A stretch of 64,000 bases of DNA from assembly GCF_963677845.1 (NCBI RefSeq), contig NZ_OY782498.1:1619518-1683517 (forward strand). Direction: 5' to 3'. Below are positions 4,829-59,919 of the stretch, piece by piece (position 1 is the stretch's first letter; each line of letters starts with the position of its first letter). This DNA comes from an uncultured Pseudodesulfovibrio sp. (GTDB lineage: Bacteria; Desulfobacterota; Desulfovibrionia; Desulfovibrionales; Desulfovibrionaceae). The notes below the pieces were generated by a model that ran no database searches, was not told the origin of the DNA, and saw only the letters and a program-made list of their open reading frames with translations. A program made the translations under genes and the position numbers.

Positions 4829-4903
<75 letters not shown>

Positions 4904-4919
4904 GTTTGAAGCGAGAGAC

Positions 4920-4948
4920 TGTTTACCTACAGCCCTCTGGGATGTCAA
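4920..4948 (-). promoter_or_regulatory. Sigma-70 promoter of single tRNA-Gly unit
   Basis: On the minus strand, TTGACA (4943-4948), a 17-bp spacer and TAAACA (4920-4925) sit 16 bases before the tRNA. The -10, the spacer length and the flanking bases match the promoter at 5273-5301 in front of the other tRNA unit. Confidence 0.8.
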
Positions 4949-4985
4949 CAGAAACTTCCCAAAAAAAAACAGAAAACTTTCAAGA

Positions 4986-5011
4986 GAAAAGCCGGCCTCT
5001 GAGAGACCGGC
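4986..5011 (-). terminator. Terminator of the Gly-Cys-Gly tRNA operon
   Basis: Arms GCCGGCCTCT and AGAGACCGGC (4991-5000 and 5002-5011) pair with one wobble in the minus-strand RNA, followed by a short T-run. It ends the three-tRNA transcript before the next tRNA promoter. Confidence 0.7.
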
Positions 5012-5020
5012 TGAATTCTC

Positions 5021-5095
<75 letters not shown>

Positions 5096-5099
5096 GACT

Positions 5100-5174
<75 letters not shown>

Positions 5175-5180
5175 GAATTT

Positions 5181-5255
<75 letters not shown>

Positions 5256-52814: not shown

Positions 52815-54044
52815 TTAATTTGCATTTCCTGTAGCCGAAACAAGAACCTTCCGACTCACGAGCATAAACACCTCGGAATCCGCCTGAAGATGACCAGCCA
52901 AAACTTCGGCCTCATCACCAGAACCACAAAACAAATCCATTCGAGTTCCCTTGATAGCTCCGCCAGTATCTTGAGCCAATACTAACGACATAAACGGATC
53001 AGAACCGCCATCGGCCGTAAGCAATGACGTTTTAAGTGCCACAACGCTTCCCAACGGGATCATATTTCTATCAACAGCTACACTCACGCGCGGCGTCAGG
53101 ATACCGCCAAAGGAACCATACGGGCCTTCATCAGCCAACCGAAAAAAGACATAGCTCGGATTTGCATAGAGAATCTCTTCTATCTTGTCTGGATTTTCAG
53201 TAAGAAAAGTACGAATGCGCTGCATACTCATCTCTTCTTTGGGGACATATCCCTTGTCAATAAGCAAACGGCCAATGGAAACGTATTGACGCCCATTTTT
53301 CCCTGCGTACAGGATATGTTTGGTGCTACCGTCAGGGAAAGCTAACCGCCCGGAGCCTTCTATCTGAAGAAAAAAAGCGTCTACCAAGTCTGAAGTCCAA
53401 GCAATTTCCTGCCCCTTTCCATCCAACACACGCTCTCCATCGATTGCAGCACGATCATGGTATGGTTCAATACCGTTCTCGCCCATTCGATAGACAAGAG
53501 ATTGTCCTTTCCACCGAGGATGAAAACCATTTAAACTGGTCGTTTTTAAATCATCAGGCACACCATAAAGCGGGAACTTGTAGGTTTCATCTGGGGTCAA
53601 AGAAGCAGCCAACCATGGCTCGTAATACCCAGTCAGCAATGTTCGGGGTGCAAGCTTCAACCATTGGAAACGCTCCGCTGCCAAACGCGGATTTTTATCC
53701 AGCTGATCAAGCATACCAAGAAGTTCCGTGACAGATTCTCCAAGCTGTGCCCATGTCAATTGCAAACCGGATTGATCTACACAAATCGCTTCCTGCGGAC
53801 GAGAACGTATGTAGCGAAGATTCAGTTCCAACGCAGGTCGAAGCTCCGTCCATGATTGCATTCCCTGCAACAGACTGGACAAGTCGTCGGCCAGGTCCTC
53901 GGCTTCACTCATATCAAGTGGAATATATGTCGGCTTGTCATCGATGGCAGGCATTCGAGTAGTTTCAGGTCCACATCCCAAAAACGAAATGAGTAAAGCA
54001 GCCAGAATCAAAGGTAGAATCAATCGCACACGCATTATTCGCAT
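52815..54044 (-). CDS. mltA: Membrane-bound lytic murein transglycosylase A
   Basis: A 409-residue lipoprotein: signal peptide RLILPLILAALLISFLGC with lipobox FLGC. The MltA domain (LTGYYEPWLAAS) and C-terminal 3D domain with catalytic Asp residues (LAQDTGGAIKGTRMDLFCGSG) are clear. It cleaves peptidoglycan strands at the outer membrane. The gene overlaps the AI-2E gene by ten bases; ATG 54044 or 54035 are both possible starts. It is likely co-transcribed with the upstream AI-2E gene. Confidence 0.92.
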   Translation of the reverse strand: MRIMRVRLILPLILAALLISFLGCGPETTRMPAIDDKPTYIPLDMSEAEDLADDLSSLLQGMQSWTELRPALELNLRYIRSRPQEAICVDQSGLQLTWAQLGESVTELLGMLDQLDKNPRLAAERFQWLKLAPRTLLTGYYEPWLAASLTPDETYKFPLYGVPDDLKTTSLNGFHPRWKGQSLVYRMGENGIEPYHDRAAIDGERVLDGKGQEIAWTSDLVDAFFLQIEGSGRLAFPDGSTKHILYAGKNGRQYVSIGRLLIDKGYVPKEEMSMQRIRTFLTENPDKIEEILYANPSYVFFRLADEGPYGSFGGILTPRVSVAVDRNMIPLGSVVALKTSLLTADGGSDPFMSLVLAQDTGGAIKGTRMDLFCGSGDEAEVLAGHLQADSEVFMLVSRKVLVSATGNAN

Positions 54045-55141
54045 TCCTCGGAGTCCTTGAGGTCTTCGGCATATTCCTCAATATAGATTTGCAGCATGAC
54101 CATGACGAAACTCAGGATAAGCGGGCCATAAAAGATGCCCAGCATACCAAAGGAATAAACGCCGCCGAGAATGGCCAGAAGTATGTAAAAGGTAGAAACG
54201 CGAGCAGCCTCACGCATGAAAATCGGTCGAAGTATCGTGTCGATACCCACCACGAATATCCCACAATACAATGCTAAAAACAAAGCCATTTTCCAATCCC
54301 CAACCAAGAAAAGGTATACCACGGATGGTACCCAGATCAATCCGGTGCCAAGGACTGGAATCAACGAAGACAGAGCCATCATGGCACCCCAGAAAAATGC
54401 GGGAATACCGACTACCGCCAGCCCAATCCCTCCGGCAACGCCTTGCAGAATGGCTACCAGCAGGCAGCCCATGAGCACTCCTCGTGCTACTCGCTTGAGA
54501 GAGTCGATAATAAAATCTTCCTGTCGTCTTCTCAGCGGAGACAAGTGCTTGATATATTCAACCATCTTGGCGCCATCTCGTAAAAAATAAAACAAAATAA
54601 AAACCATAAGCAGAAAATGTAAAATAAACTTTGCACCGTTTCTTACCAAATCAGTGCCGAAGGTAAGCATCCCCTGCGCAAATTGTCTGGAATACTGAAT
54701 CACGCTTGCCTTGATATCGACTTCATCAATCCGCAGAAACGGCAATTGTTCATTGAGCATATGGACATATTTATCCAACATATCAAGACTCATATGAGAC
54801 TTATACAGCCCCTGGGCCACCCATTGGTTCAAAGAAACAAGCGATTCAACCCCTTGACCGATAAGGGCCATAAACAAAAAGGCCATCGGCAAAATCAAAG
54901 CAAAAACGATGATGGATACGGTCATGACTGATGCCAAATTGCGCCGTCCTTTACAGACCTTCAAAGCCCAGACAAAAACCGGAGCAAAAAGCACAGCAAG
55001 CACCGTAGAAAAAATCAAAGTATGTAAAAAGGGCGCGATCAAAGAAAAGCCTAGGTACAGGGATAAAGAAAAAAGCAGGAGAAAGAAGACCTTGTAGATC
55101 CCTCCGTCCAGTAACGGGACCGATTTCTTTTTGTCACTCAT
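54035..55141 (-). CDS. AI-2E family transporter
   Basis: A 368-residue membrane protein with about eight helices and the family layout: a membrane start, a soluble segment near residues 110-150, and a C-terminal PILGTGLIWVPSVVYLFLVG stretch. The family includes TqsA and sodium/proton antiporters; the solute cannot be told. It follows the hybrid kinase gene by 40 bp and overlaps mltA, suggesting a kinase/AI-2E/mltA transcript. Confidence 0.88.
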   Translation of the reverse strand: MSDKKKSVPLLDGGIYKVFFLLLFSLSLYLGFSLIAPFLHTLIFSTVLAVLFAPVFVWALKVCKGRRNLASVMTVSIIVFALILPMAFLFMALIGQGVESLVSLNQWVAQGLYKSHMSLDMLDKYVHMLNEQLPFLRIDEVDIKASVIQYSRQFAQGMLTFGTDLVRNGAKFILHFLLMVFILFYFLRDGAKMVEYIKHLSPLRRRQEDFIIDSLKRVARGVLMGCLLVAILQGVAGGIGLAVVGIPAFFWGAMMALSSLIPVLGTGLIWVPSVVYLFLVGDWKMALFLALYCGIFVVGIDTILRPIFMREAARVSTFYILLAILGGVYSFGMLGIFYGPLILSFVMVMLQIYIEEYAEDLKDSEECE

Positions 55142-55181: not shown

Positions 55182-56753
55182 TTACTCATTGTTCAGCGTT
55201 GATTGTATGATAGCGGCGATGGTGTCAATATCCACGGGCTTAGAAACGTAATCGTTCATACCCACATGAATACATCGTTGCTCGTCTCCCCACATTGCAC
55301 GCGCTGTCAATGCGACGATAGGAACATCAGGATCCAAACAGCCCGTATCCACCTTTCTTATAAGTCGAGTCGCTTCGATACCATTCATAACAGGCATTTC
55401 AACATCCATAAAAACGATATCGAACGCCTGCTCTTTGAGCACATCCACTGCCTGCGCTCCATTTTCTGCCAAAAGGACATTGCACCCCATTTTCTGAAGT
55501 AATCTGACAATATATCGCTGATTAACCAAATCATCTTCCGCCACAAGGACATTCGCCCCCTTGAGCGGGGATTGATCACTCAATACGGTCGCCGATGGGG
55601 CCTGATCTTCATAACGACTCCTCTTAAATGGGAGAATAACGGAAAAGATACTCCCCTTCCCTTCAACACTGGAACATTTGATCACACCACCAAGAACACT
55701 CACAAGCCTGCTGACAATAGCGAGACCTAAACCCAATCCCCCTGTCGCATGCCGCAAATGGTCCTCGGCCTGATTGAAACTCTCAAAAATATCATCCAGT
55801 TTTTCTGCGGGAATACCAATTCCTGTATCCTGAACCAATACTTGAACTGCCAAATCGACATCTCTATCAGTCGCAAACGTTTCATCGCCATTACTGGGCG
55901 GAGACACATCCACCATAACCTGTCCGGAGGAAGTAAACTTCACGGCGTTGTTGATGAGATTGCCCAATATTTGCCTAATTTTGGTGGTATCACCTCTAAT
56001 CCAGCCAGGAACATCCGGGGAGATGGAATATTCAAGTGTAACGCCTTTAATTTTTGACGTCCGTTTATACTGAGACAACAGACCGGATACCATGTCCTCA
56101 AGACGAAAATCCATCTCTCGAACCGGAAGTGAACTGGCCTCAATTTTGGAATAATCAATAATCTGATTTAATACAGACAATAAAGACATGGACGATTCTC
56201 GAATAAGCTGAACATTCTCACGATATTGAGCATCAATATCGGACATAAGCAGTAATTCGGTCATACCGAGTACACCATTCATAGGTGTTCTCAACTCATG
56301 ACTGACTGTAGCCAGAAAAGAAGTCTTGGCCCTATTCGCAGCCTCAGCTTCTCTCCTTGCCTTTTTCAGTTCTCGTTCCATTTGGTGTTTGTATAGACCA
56401 ACTTCAATCGCTAATTTAAGTTCATTGCGGTCAACTGGTTTTACCAGATACCCCAAAGGACCCGTATTTTTAGCCCAATTTAAAGAGGCCGCATCGACCA
56501 CCACAGTTAAATAAATGACCGGAATGTCAAAACGACGAAGAATCTCCCCTGCGGCTTCAACGCCATCCATGACTCCTTCAAGCTGAATATCCATAAGCAC
56601 AAGATCAGGATTAAAGGATTCTGCCATCTCAATGGCTCTTTCTCCACTTGTGGAGTAGCCGACGATATCATATCCAGCCCGCTCCAAGGCAACCTGAATA
56701 TCAAGTCGGACGACAGCATCGTCTTCCACAAGCAAAATCTTTTCTGTTGGCAT
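55182..56753 (-). CDS. Hybrid histidine kinase, REC-HisKA-HATPase-REC
   Basis: A 523-residue cytoplasmic protein with no membrane helix. Residues 1-125 are a receiver domain (phospho-Asp near 55 in LVLMDIQL). A coiled coil leads to HisKA with FLATVSHELRTPMNGVLGM (His near 150), then an ATPase domain (NLINNAVKFTSSGQ, DTGIGIPAEKLDDIF), and a second receiver with FMDVEMPVMNG (Asp near 448). It takes input from another kinase through the first receiver, so it is a relay rather than a direct sensor. No response regulator is adjacent; output is unknown. Confidence 0.93.
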   Translation of the reverse strand: MPTEKILLVEDDAVVRLDIQVALERAGYDIVGYSTSGERAIEMAESFNPDLVLMDIQLEGVMDGVEAAGEILRRFDIPVIYLTVVVDAASLNWAKNTGPLGYLVKPVDRNELKLAIEVGLYKHQMERELKKARREAEAANRAKTSFLATVSHELRTPMNGVLGMTELLLMSDIDAQYRENVQLIRESSMSLLSVLNQIIDYSKIEASSLPVREMDFRLEDMVSGLLSQYKRTSKIKGVTLEYSISPDVPGWIRGDTTKIRQILGNLINNAVKFTSSGQVMVDVSPPSNGDETFATDRDVDLAVQVLVQDTGIGIPAEKLDDIFESFNQAEDHLRHATGGLGLGLAIVSRLVSVLGGVIKCSSVEGKGSIFSVILPFKRSRYEDQAPSATVLSDQSPLKGANVLVAEDDLVNQRYIVRLLQKMGCNVLLAENGAQAVDVLKEQAFDIVFMDVEMPVMNGIEATRLIRKVDTGCLDPDVPIVALTARAMWGDEQRCIHVGMNDYVSKPVDIDTIAAIIQSTLNNE

Positions 56754-57269
56754 GCAGCATCTCCCTCGCGCATTAATTCAACCACAATATAGTTATCATA
56801 ACCCAGAACCAAGGGTAACCCTCTTAAAATCATTATTTTCTAAAGGACGACGCATTATTACACTATTGTCAACAATCCGCCGGGCGCTCACCTTTGTTGC
56901 ACTATAAACACCTGAAAAACTCTTCTACCGATAAAAGCCCTGATTTCCTCTTCTATATGAATGACGTTGAAAACGGCACTATAGCTGAACAACATGAAAA
57001 CTTTCTTGATATTTCTTACTATTAAAGCTAAGTAATAATTTCGCTCAATAGACAATTTTGTTCACTGAGCGGGTGTCAAGGACCCAAAACCTCATCATGT
57101 TGTTTTAACCCGGACAACAGAACGAGGCATAGGGCCCAAGCCAACAGCGCGTTGTTTTAACCCGGACAACAGCCTTGGCAAAGGCTCCAAAGCCTCTGAC
57201 TTGTCGTTTAACCCGGACGACATTTCAAGGTATGGGCATACCATAACCCCAATTTTACTGGAGGAAAGG
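56754..57269. other. Regulatory region upstream of second amino-acid ABC operon
   Basis: A 516-bp region with no gene. It holds a 30-bp imperfect dyad (CGCTCA-N18-TGAGCG, 57042-57071) and three stem-loop units at 52-bp spacing (57098-57242). A GGAGG ribosome site at 57260-57264 serves the binding-protein gene. The kinase gene upstream runs the other way, so part of this region must hold its promoter. Confidence 0.75.
57098..57242 (+). repeat. Three tandem stem-loop repeats, 52-bp period
   Basis: Three copies of a short inverted repeat share the loop TTTAACCCGG: TGTTGT/ACAACA (57098-57119), GTTGT/ACAAC (57151-57170) and TGTCG(T)/ACGACA (57202-57222). Equivalent bases are exactly 52 bp apart. 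In copy 3 a T-to-C change in the left arm is matched by A-to-G in the right. Copies 2 and 3 are followed by a further hairpin (57182-57195; 57229-57242). They lie just before an ABC operon. Confidence 0.85.
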
Positions 57270-58094
57270 ATGAAACGCATCATTACCATTCTGGCTGCGC
57301 TGTCTCTGCTTCTGTGCGCCGCCATATCAGCTCAGGCGGCTGACATCGATCTTGCTAAAAAATCGACCCTGGAAAAGGTCATCCAAAGCGGCGAACTGCG
57401 CATTGGAACCGAAGCTGGCTACATGCCCTTCGAAATGACGGACAAAAAAGGGCAGGTTGTCGGTTTCGACATCGACATGTGTAAAGAAATGGCCAAAGCC
57501 ATGGGTGTCAAATTGACCATCGTCAACACGGCTTGGGATGGGATTATCCCCGGCCTCCTGTCCAACAAATATGACCTCATTGCCTCTGGCATGACCGTCA
57601 ATCAGGAACGCAACCTGAAAGTCAACTTCGCCAACCCGTATATCGTTGTGGGGCAGACCGCTCTGATCAACAAAAAATGGGCTGACGAAATCAAGACATA
57701 CAAAGACCTGAACAACCCCAAATACACCATTACTTCCAAACTCGGCACGACTGGTGAACAGGCTGCAAAACGCATGTTTCCCAAAGCGCAGTACAAATCA
57801 TTTGAAATGGAAGATCAGGCCATGCTGGAAGCTCTGAACGGAAAGGCCACCGCCACCGTTTACGACCTGCCTATGACCTCCATTTTCTACGCTCAACGCG
57901 GTAAAGACGCTGACATGAAATTCTTGAACGAACCCTTCACTTACGAGCCTCTGGGCTGGGCCATCAACAAAGGTGACCCCGACTTCCTGAACTGGCTCAA
58001 CAACTTCCTCGTTCAGATGAAGAACGATGGCCGCTACGACCGCATCTACAATAAGTGGTTCGGTTCCAACAAGTGGCTCAAAGACGTTCAGTAG
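57270..58094 (+). CDS. Amino-acid ABC transporter, substrate-binding protein (second operon)
   Basis: A 274-residue periplasmic protein with a signal peptide (ITILAALSLLLCAAISAQA) and the family 3 fold (GELRIGTEAGYMPFEMTD, GFDIDMCKEMAKAMGV). It should bind a polar amino acid such as glutamine or a similar solute. Start 57270 has GGAGG five bases upstream. The long leader with three stem-loops is unusual, and a strong terminator follows the gene before the permease gene. Confidence 0.92.
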   Translation: MKRIITILAALSLLLCAAISAQAADIDLAKKSTLEKVIQSGELRIGTEAGYMPFEMTDKKGQVVGFDIDMCKEMAKAMGVKLTIVNTAWDGIIPGLLSNKYDLIASGMTVNQERNLKVNFANPYIVVGQTALINKKWADEIKTYKDLNNPKYTITSKLGTTGEQAAKRMFPKAQYKSFEMEDQAMLEALNGKATATVYDLPMTSIFYAQRGKDADMKFLNEPFTYEPLGWAINKGDPDFLNWLNNFLVQMKNDGRYDRIYNKWFGSNKWLKDVQ

Positions 58095-58172: not shown

Positions 58173-59183
58173 ATGACAGATACTGCGACCGTTGGAACTC
58201 CCAAGGGATTCAATAAAAATACTTTTTGGAAGGCAGTCTACTTTGTCCTGCTCTTCGTTGTCATCGGCGGCTTCTATTGGGCCACAGAACAAGCTGATTA
58301 CATCTGGAGATGGAACCGTCTTCCCAGATATTTCTACTACGTCGAAACAATAGACGTAACGGCCGAAATCGAAGGAGAAGTCGCCTCCATCACCCAAAAG
58401 GATGATGATTCCGTCGTCATAATCGAAGGCGGAGGCGAATCAGAATATTACACCATCCCCGGTTCTGACGTTCGCGTGGACGTTGGCGACACTATTTATA
58501 TGGGGGATCCCATAGGGGTCTATGAAGAAGGCAGAATGGGCCTGCTTCTTGATGGTCTGTTGGTGACCATCGAGGTCAGCCTTGTTTCCATCTTTCTCGG
58601 TATTCTTCTCGGCCTGTTCACCGGCCTTGCCAGAATATCCAGTAACCCCTGTCTAAAATGGGGAGCCATTACATACATTGAATTGATCCGAGGTTCTCCC
58701 CTGCTTGTCCAGATCATGATCTGGTACTTTGTTCTTGGAACCATCATCAACAATCTCTTGGCAAAAGCCGACTTGTTCCAAATTCCCGAACTATGGTTTG
58801 CAGTAGCATCCCTTGCTATTTTTGCCGGCGCCTATGTAGCCGAAATCGTTCGTGCAGGCATCCAATCCATCCATAAAGGACAAATGGAAGCAGCCCGATC
58901 TCTCGGAATGACCAAGGCGACTGCGATGCGCAAGATCATCCTGCCCCAGGCCTTCAAACGCATACTGCCTCCATTGGCTGGTCAGTTCATCAGTCTGATC
59001 AAAGACTCATCTCTGCTCGGCGTCATCGCAATACGCGAGCTGACCAAAGCAACACGTGAGGCGGTCACCACCAGTCTCATGCCCTACGAACTCTGGTTTC
59101 TGTGCGGCATCATGTACCTCGTGATTACATTCACTCTGTCCATGTTTGTTCAATATCTTGAAAAAAGGACAGCGGAGGTCTAA
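58173..59183 (+). CDS. Amino-acid ABC permease with extra N-terminal beta-rich insert
   Basis: A 336-residue permease, longer than the usual 220. The C-terminal 220 residues are a standard polar-amino-acid permease with the loop [20 protein letters not shown]. The N-terminal part has a first helix ([16 protein letters not shown]) followed by about 75 residues rich in beta strands and acidic residues ([17 protein letters not shown]) before the second helix. This insert would lie outside the membrane and might assist in binding-protein docking. Only one permease gene is present, so the channel is a homodimer. Start 58173 was chosen as the first ATG after the terminator. Confidence 0.88.
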
Positions 59184-59187
59184 AAAA

Positions 59188-59919
59188 ATGATAGACGTCA
59201 AAAACGTATACAAGACCTTTTTTGTCCCGCATGAAATTCAAGCTTTGCATGACGTGTCCTACCACATCAATCCGGGCGAAGTGGTTGTTGTCATCGGCCC
59301 GTCAGGGTCAGGCAAGTCCACGTTCCTTCGATGCCTCAATCGTTTGGAACATGCCAACTCCGGCCATATAATGATTGATGGCGTTGACGTCCTCGATCCC
59401 AAGACCAATATCAACAAAGTTCGCATGGAAGTAGGCATGGTCTTCCAGTCCTTCAACCTCTTCCCGCATCTGACCGTGCTTGAAAATGTCACCGTAGGCC
59501 AAACATCCGTTCGTAAACGTGGCAAAAAAGAATCTGCGGAAAATGCCATGACCTTACTTAACAAAGTAGGCATTCATGCCAAGGCAGACAACTACCCGGC
59601 CCAACTCTCCGGCGGCCAAATGCAGCGCGTCGCTATAGCCCGTGCTCTAGCAATGGACCCCAAGGTCATGCTCTTTGATGAGCCAACCTCAGCACTGGAC
59701 CCTGAAATGGTCGGCGAGGTTCTCGACGTCATGAAAGCCTTGGCTAAAGAAGGCATGACCATGGTCGTCGTTACCCACGAAATGGGCTTTGCCCGCGAAG
59801 TGGCCGATCATGTCGTCTTTATGGATGAAGGAAAGATCGTCGAAGTCGGTAACCCCGAACATTTCTTTACCACCCCCGAGCACGAACGCACCAAACTCTT
59901 CCTAAGCCAAATATTATAA
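59188..59919 (+). CDS. Amino-acid ABC transporter ATP-binding protein (second operon)
   Basis: A 243-residue ATPase with Walker [10 protein letters not shown], signature LSGGQMQR, Walker [13 protein letters not shown] and switch VVTHEMG, typical of GlnQ. It begins five bases after the permease gene with GGAGG upstream. It completes a three-gene importer (binding protein, one permease, ATPase). Confidence 0.95.

Follow-up and report, generated by a model that had tools for sequence, protein, structure and literature searches.

The window analysed here is a 64,000-nucleotide stretch of DNA from an uncultured Pseudodesulfovibrio sp., and the question raised by one of its loci is what kind of element is formed by three closely spaced inverted repeats lying immediately in front of an amino-acid ABC transporter operon. 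The operon begins with a gene for a substrate-binding protein of 274 amino acids (57270..58094, plus strand), whose ATG at 57270 is preceded by GGAGGAAAGG. It continues on the same strand with an ABC permease (58173..59183), which has about 120 amino acids ahead of its permease-domain match, and an ABC ATPase of the GlnQ-like type (59188..59919). The best solved relative of the binding protein is 3k4u (E = 1.9e-92), presumably a structure solved with lysine, and the protein is also near AncCDT-1; the substrate of the operon is probably a cationic amino acid. A divergent gene of the response-regulator/histidine-kinase type (55182..56753, minus strand) was typed from its sequence alone. Elsewhere in the window, 4829-5255 on the minus strand contains a cluster of four tRNA genes, of which three are tRNA-Gly(gcc) and the fourth is tRNA-Cys(gca).

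The region 57079-57243 consists of three tandem hairpin units of about 60 nucleotides each, in which an ACCCGG loop lies within an outer helix, and these units follow a promoter-like block and precede the start codon at 57270. The three inverted repeats with a common loop described in the initial annotation were recovered, with TTTAACCCGGAC starting at 57104, 57156 and 57207; with one mismatch allowed, 0.21 copies are expected by chance, and three copies were reached in 0 of 100 shuffles. The exact 52-bp period proposed for them applies only to the left arms (52/52). The third loop lacks one base relative to the other two, which shifts the right arms, and the motif itself advances by steps of 52 and 51; in three-copy relatives the units are spaced 53/52, 53/52 and 50/54. 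When folded as RNA, the region 57060-57270 gave a z-score of -3.09 against dinucleotide shuffles, 1 of 200 shuffles being equally good.

Unit 1 (57079..57138, plus strand) carries GGACCC and the outer helix CCTC/GAGG (57090-57093/57124-57127), and its inner stem TGTTGT/ACAACA (57098-57103/57114-57119) closes the loop TTTAACCCGG; it scored 60.3 bits with the covariance model R1. The 3' GG..CC block of unit 1 is common to unit 2 (57131..57189, plus strand), which carries GGGCCC, the outer helix GCCAA/TTGGC (57140-57144/57175-57179) and the inner stem GTTGT/ACAAC (57151-57155/57166-57170) with the same loop TTTAACCCGG, and which was only a partial R1 match (E = 0.003 at whole-genome scale). Unit 3 (57182..57243, plus strand; 55.1 bits) has GGCTCC, the outer helix CCT.TGA/TCA.AGG (57193-57199/57225-57230) and the inner stem TGTCGT/ACGACA (57202-57207/57217-57222), with the loop TTAACCCGG followed by GGGCATACCA. 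The paired T-to-C and A-to-G change reported for this third copy is real, and the distance of unit 3 from the start codon is that of the single copy in other species. A second, different hairpin had also been assigned to copies 2 and 3. In copy 2 the arms in question, GCCAA/TTGGC, are those of the outer helix surrounding the inner stem and form no hairpin of their own; in copy 3 the hairpin GGTATGGGCATACC (57229-57242) is present, but of the 25 remaining hairpin loci just two, L035 and L036, retain it. The window's own genome contains no further copy of GTTTAACCCGGAC at up to one mismatch. As the motif is confined to these three places, with no other R1 match in that genome, a repeat or mobile element was rejected.

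The distribution of the element was examined in 36 Pseudodesulfovibrio genomes. A binding-protein ortholog (E <= 1e-70) was found in 31 of them, and 26 of these 31 have the element in the leader; one leader without it despite an ortholog is that of genome G248 (L121/L164). The ACCCGG of the nearest unit lies 57-67 nucleotides 5' of the start codon in every one of the 26 hairpin genomes. Three units are found in the window and in L035, L036 and L037, two adjacent hairpins in L038, and a single unit in the remaining 21. On a tree of 63 binding proteins (quick method) the hairpin genomes form one clade with a branch support of 100, and the midpoint root adjoins the branch separating the 26 hairpin rows.

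The covariance-model search that the initial annotation had suggested for related genomes returned conserved pairing, always in front of the same gene. Of 288 family genomes, R1 detected the element in 26, which are all Pseudodesulfovibrio and, by coordinates, all have it just 5' of the binding-protein gene; no second R1 place was found in these 26 (E <= 0.05, strict filters). One extra family match (G072, E = 0.034) has a sequence without the ACCCGG loop. Among 395 phylum genomes there were seven weak matches besides the own genome (E = 9e-4 to 0.046), a number within chance since about 20 are allowed at 0.05 over 395 genomes; three of the seven alignments were inspected, and stem pairs are broken in the best of them. 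The family and the phylum scans were both run with stricter filters and could therefore have missed weak relatives. Matches to a 13-base pattern across the family were, by eye, no commoner than those of a reversed control.

The earlier statement that the pattern belongs to no named class holds as far as Rfam 15, in which zero families reached the gathering threshold on the element. A permissive scan of 56850-57350 (E up to 10) gave four matches (E = 4.2-9.9), each falling far short of its gathering score; those touching the element were LhrC (16.9 of 110 bits) and, on the other strand, rdlD (13.6 of 50). The loci of four relatives gave no Rfam match at E up to 1. No description of the element was found in the literature, as judged from titles and listings, and it is in the sense of this search together with Rfam that we regard it as not in print. 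The element is real, wider in scope than first noticed and absent from Rfam.

For the structure, 30 units were aligned, 24 gene-proximal and 6 from upstream tandem positions; L036, a near copy of L035, and the double hairpin of L038 were left out. A MAFFT alignment of whole leaders had just four consensus pairs, and trimming to units improved the alignment. The resulting layout is GG..CC, outer helix P1, a small internal loop, inner stem P2, a loop of 8-10 nucleotides ending in ACCCGG, the returning arms P2' and P1', and GGnATACCA. The loop letters T, A, C, C, C and G are invariant in the 30 units, and the next G is nearly so. The arms vary freely, with inner stems such as TGTCGT/ACGACA, GGTGT/ACACC, GCCAT/ATGGC, CCGT/ACGG and CGG/CCG, and two-sided changes are seen in all six inner pairs. 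These pairs had a covariation score of 0.416, whereas shuffles averaged 0.172 (0 of 500 reached the observed score) and partners slid out of register scored at most 0.189; with the outer GG..CC pairs added, the score was 0.295 against 0.145 in shuffles. The energy of the inner stem with its own partner was -4.5 kcal/mol, compared with -1.9 kcal/mol for permuted 3' arms, none of 2000 permutations being as low. The outer helices were tested by energy because their lengths vary, and gave a mean of -9.4 kcal/mol against -6.4 kcal/mol when permuted (sd 0.45), again with 0 of 2000 as low. The permutation result holds likewise in a less redundant subset of 18 units; all of these shuffle and permutation controls ignore descent and relatedness. 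Of the inner cells in the alignment, 81% are paired and 19% unpaired, and by a simple rule at least four uninterrupted inner pairs occur in 24 of 30 units; in L045, L056, L057, L058, L059 and unit 2 of L035 the inner stem is cut by a mismatch to 1-3 pairs. Conservation is also high in the two flanking blocks, GGAnCC and GGnATACCA, which may pair with one another. Here GG is paired with CC in 94% of cells and shows a single double change, and CC is paired with GG (helix 6-7/58-59) in 71.7% and shows none; support for this outermost pairing is only partial.

The initial annotation had also pointed to the self-complementary CCGG of the loop as a possible site of loop-loop contact in RNA. This idea is weakened by the units of L035/L036 and L037, which have CCCGA instead, and by the single-copy relatives; the CCGG palindrome is not essential.

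A promoter-like block, TTGATA-17-TAAGTA (57006..57034, plus strand), lies ahead of all three units and predicts a transcription start near 57041. A transcript starting after 57222 had been named as evidence that would exclude an RNA function; the block is upstream of that point, and the start deduced from it precedes the array. All 26 hairpin loci have a CTTG...-17-TA block 5' of the element, its spacer being exactly 17 without exception, and 21 of them have the stricter second hexamer TA(A/T)(G/A). A sigma-70 consensus scan of 56850-57300 gave no promoter above threshold, the promoter-like block included. The window leader has no terminator-like site, and an attenuator was rejected on this ground.

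At the other end of the leader, in the ribosome-site region (57247..57269, plus strand), local folding predicted that CCCCA at 57247-57251 can pair with TGG.AGG at 57259-57264 over the Shine-Dalgarno sequence. In 16 of the 26 leaders the same method predicted a start-codon hairpin in which upstream bases pair with ATGAAAC and the Shine-Dalgarno sequence is enclosed. It was not predicted in the other 10, that of the window included; in the clade of the window (L034-L037), the predicted partner of the Shine-Dalgarno sequence is CCCCA or CCCA instead. The start-codon hairpin is outside the reach of covariation because ATGAAAC is protein-coding.

In other genera, the place of the element is occupied by a small gene. 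Their leaders contain a gene of about 50-60 amino acids, its starts placed by eye. It encodes a pair of CxxC motifs, of which the first is CxxH in a few, within the pattern VEVxCPKCRxTxIVYxP..MPKCPxCKxEMIIKEVLTEGK. This predicted zinc-ribbon gene lies 5' of the binding-protein gene in loci L094-L121 and L147-L166, mostly from other genera, for example at L118:348-527 on the minus strand. A profile of it matched 57 of 288 family genomes (E <= 0.001). Fifty-six of these, excluding a weak match in G128, are among the 85 with a binding-protein ortholog, and in 56 of 56 the ribbon gene is on the same strand, 31-402 nucleotides 5' of the binding-protein match. The 85 genomes are thereby split into 26 with the hairpin, 56 with the ribbon, 3 with neither and 0 with both; the profile matched 0 of the 26 hairpin genomes, and the ribbon gene is present in 56 of the 59 that have the ortholog without the hairpin. 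Ribbon genomes also occur in Pseudodesulfovibrio outside the hairpin clade (G222, G229 and G248), and the ribbon state needs six changes on the binding-protein tree (quick method). The three genomes with neither are G236 (L119), G254 (L062) and G125. The leader of G236 appears by eye to contain pieces of a decayed ribbon gene and may possibly represent an intermediate of the ribbon-to-hairpin swap.

The genomic surroundings were compared in nine neighbourhoods from the genus, three with the ribbon, two with neither and four with the hairpin. All nine have orthologs of the two genes at 52815-55141 next to the operon, and eight have an ortholog of the divergent regulator gene there, L183 being the exception. 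As the surroundings are syntenic in these neighbourhoods, the swap occurred in place, and on these comparisons the hairpin RNA took over the place of a small gene predicted to encode a zinc-binding protein. An origin of the RNA from the ribbon gene itself was rejected: the hairpin leaders showed no sequence trace of it, and they aligned no better than two-base block shuffles with the loci compared, namely the ribbon loci of G222, G229 and G248, the G254 leader and the decayed G236 locus. For each locus, no more than 1 of the 26 leaders outscored its 20 shuffles. What is observed is a conserved structure of the RNA type that arose once and occupies a fixed position in the leader, at a site taken by a protein gene in relatives.

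How might such an element act? We favour, with moderate confidence, a structured leader RNA that acts in cis from the 5' untranslated region of the ABC uptake operon, in which a partner would bind the loop and control would be exerted at the Shine-Dalgarno sequence. Compensatory changes in the arms across species and a constant place in the 5' untranslated region, both features of such a leader RNA, were found; the tandem structured RNA (riboswitch-like) or RNA-protein array first suggested is supported, since the arms covary over 26 genomes around a nearly invariant loop and a promoter-like block lies 5' of the units. The element would be transcribed in the 5' untranslated region of the binding-protein operon, and the partner, which could be a protein, the amino acid that is transported or a metabolite related to it, would recognise the loop and the internal loops. 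Its binding would alter access to the Shine-Dalgarno sequence and so translation initiation, local hairpins being predicted to cover that sequence in the majority of leaders; tandem copies might raise sensitivity or gain. Probably, the element governs the amount of transporter made. Since the loop is near-invariant, a specific partner is favoured over plain protection of the mRNA. However, if the partner is a metabolite, the restriction to one operon per genome in one genus is unusually narrow.

The partner could be accommodated in either of two more specific ways. In the first, the unit, tandem here, would be the aptamer of a metabolite riboswitch that senses the amino acid taken up (lysine/arginine type) or one of its products. 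A conserved core (loop, GGAnCC and GGnATACCA) directly 5' of a transporter operon would fit, as would the relationship of the binding protein to 3k4u and AncCDT-1, and tandem aptamers occur among known riboswitches; a cationic amino acid is the first ligand candidate because 3k4u is the nearest solved relative. We hold this reading only tentatively, however, given a single operon in a single genus and the lack of a second R1 place in the 26 hairpin genomes. In the second, for which we would likewise claim rather little likelihood, the units are sites for an RNA-binding protein, acting in autoregulation or as a global regulator such as CsrA. Protein-bound RNA operators are typically short hairpins in which the loop hardly varies and the stems are free to change, and the units fit this description. 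CsrA is a candidate because GGA recurs in the flank, at the loop edge, also within GGAGGAAAGGATG, and in the Shine-Dalgarno sequence. The CsrA operator consensus, however, is a conserved unpaired ANGGAN in the loop, and the loop here is TTACCCGG, with the A following GG in the closing pair; the invariant CCC would also be left unexplained, and the GGA of the flank becomes GGC or GAA in several species.

It is rather improbable that the units are simply 5' hairpins stabilising the mRNA, or targets for pairing with a small RNA via the C-rich loop; their 5' position and stable fold would suit such a role, but pure stabilisers require no conserved loop. A DNA operator array phased on the helix, proposed at first as a regulator array on one DNA face and attractive in that the 52 bp seen in the window come close to five turns, is very improbable because the period is neither exact nor conserved, and it was rejected, the spacing varying as given above, 21 of 26 genomes having a single copy, the arms diverging freely among species around a non-palindromic centre, and the units lying 3' of the promoter-like block.

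Returning to the leader RNA, the element took over the place, and perhaps also the regulatory job, of the ancestral zinc-ribbon gene. The fullest version of this proposal, a riboswitch-like class of single Pseudodesulfovibrio origin that functionally replaced a zinc-ribbon protein regulator and was later triplicated in the clade of the window, is speculative and we consider it unlikely as a whole. If the RNA did functionally replace a ribbon regulator, it would be a natural instance of an RNA taking over from a protein. The swap at a syntenic locus offers a testable case of protein-to-RNA regulatory turnover, and a first functional lead on an unnamed microprotein family preceding amino-acid transporter genes. 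A compact motif with natural single, double and triple versions before one operon is also a system in which to ask why leader RNAs duplicate.

Among known systems, the element most invites comparison with the tandem-aptamer riboswitches (glycine, guanidine-II/mini-ykkC and NAD+-I), with which it has in common repeated leader units, conserved loops, variable stems and a transporter or metabolic gene downstream. It differs from them in matching no Rfam model at threshold, in its ACCCGG loop, and in having mostly one unit, at one operon and in one genus. The lysine riboswitch (L-box of Rfam) is found upstream of cationic amino-acid genes, as the element probably is, whereas the latter is a unit of about 60 nucleotides with one stem-loop and without a match to the covariance model of that class. 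The guanidine-III riboswitch contains ...UACCCGG... with a pseudoknot, and thus has a short ACCCGG string near a hairpin as well; given the different layout and gene context and the lack of a covariance-model match, this likeness is treated as a coincidence. The hairpin operators of CsrA/RsmE resemble the element in having GGA at the loop edge and in the Shine-Dalgarno sequence; the element differs by its invariant CCC, a flank GGA that is not kept and a longer loop. Finally, the ribbon protein matched no Pfam or NCBIfam family at cut-off, and its weak best likenesses include S27e. Zinc-ribbon microproteins of the S27e/eS27 shape are weakly resembled by the ancestral gene at the place of the hairpin, which encodes a protein and is unmatched in the hairpin genomes.
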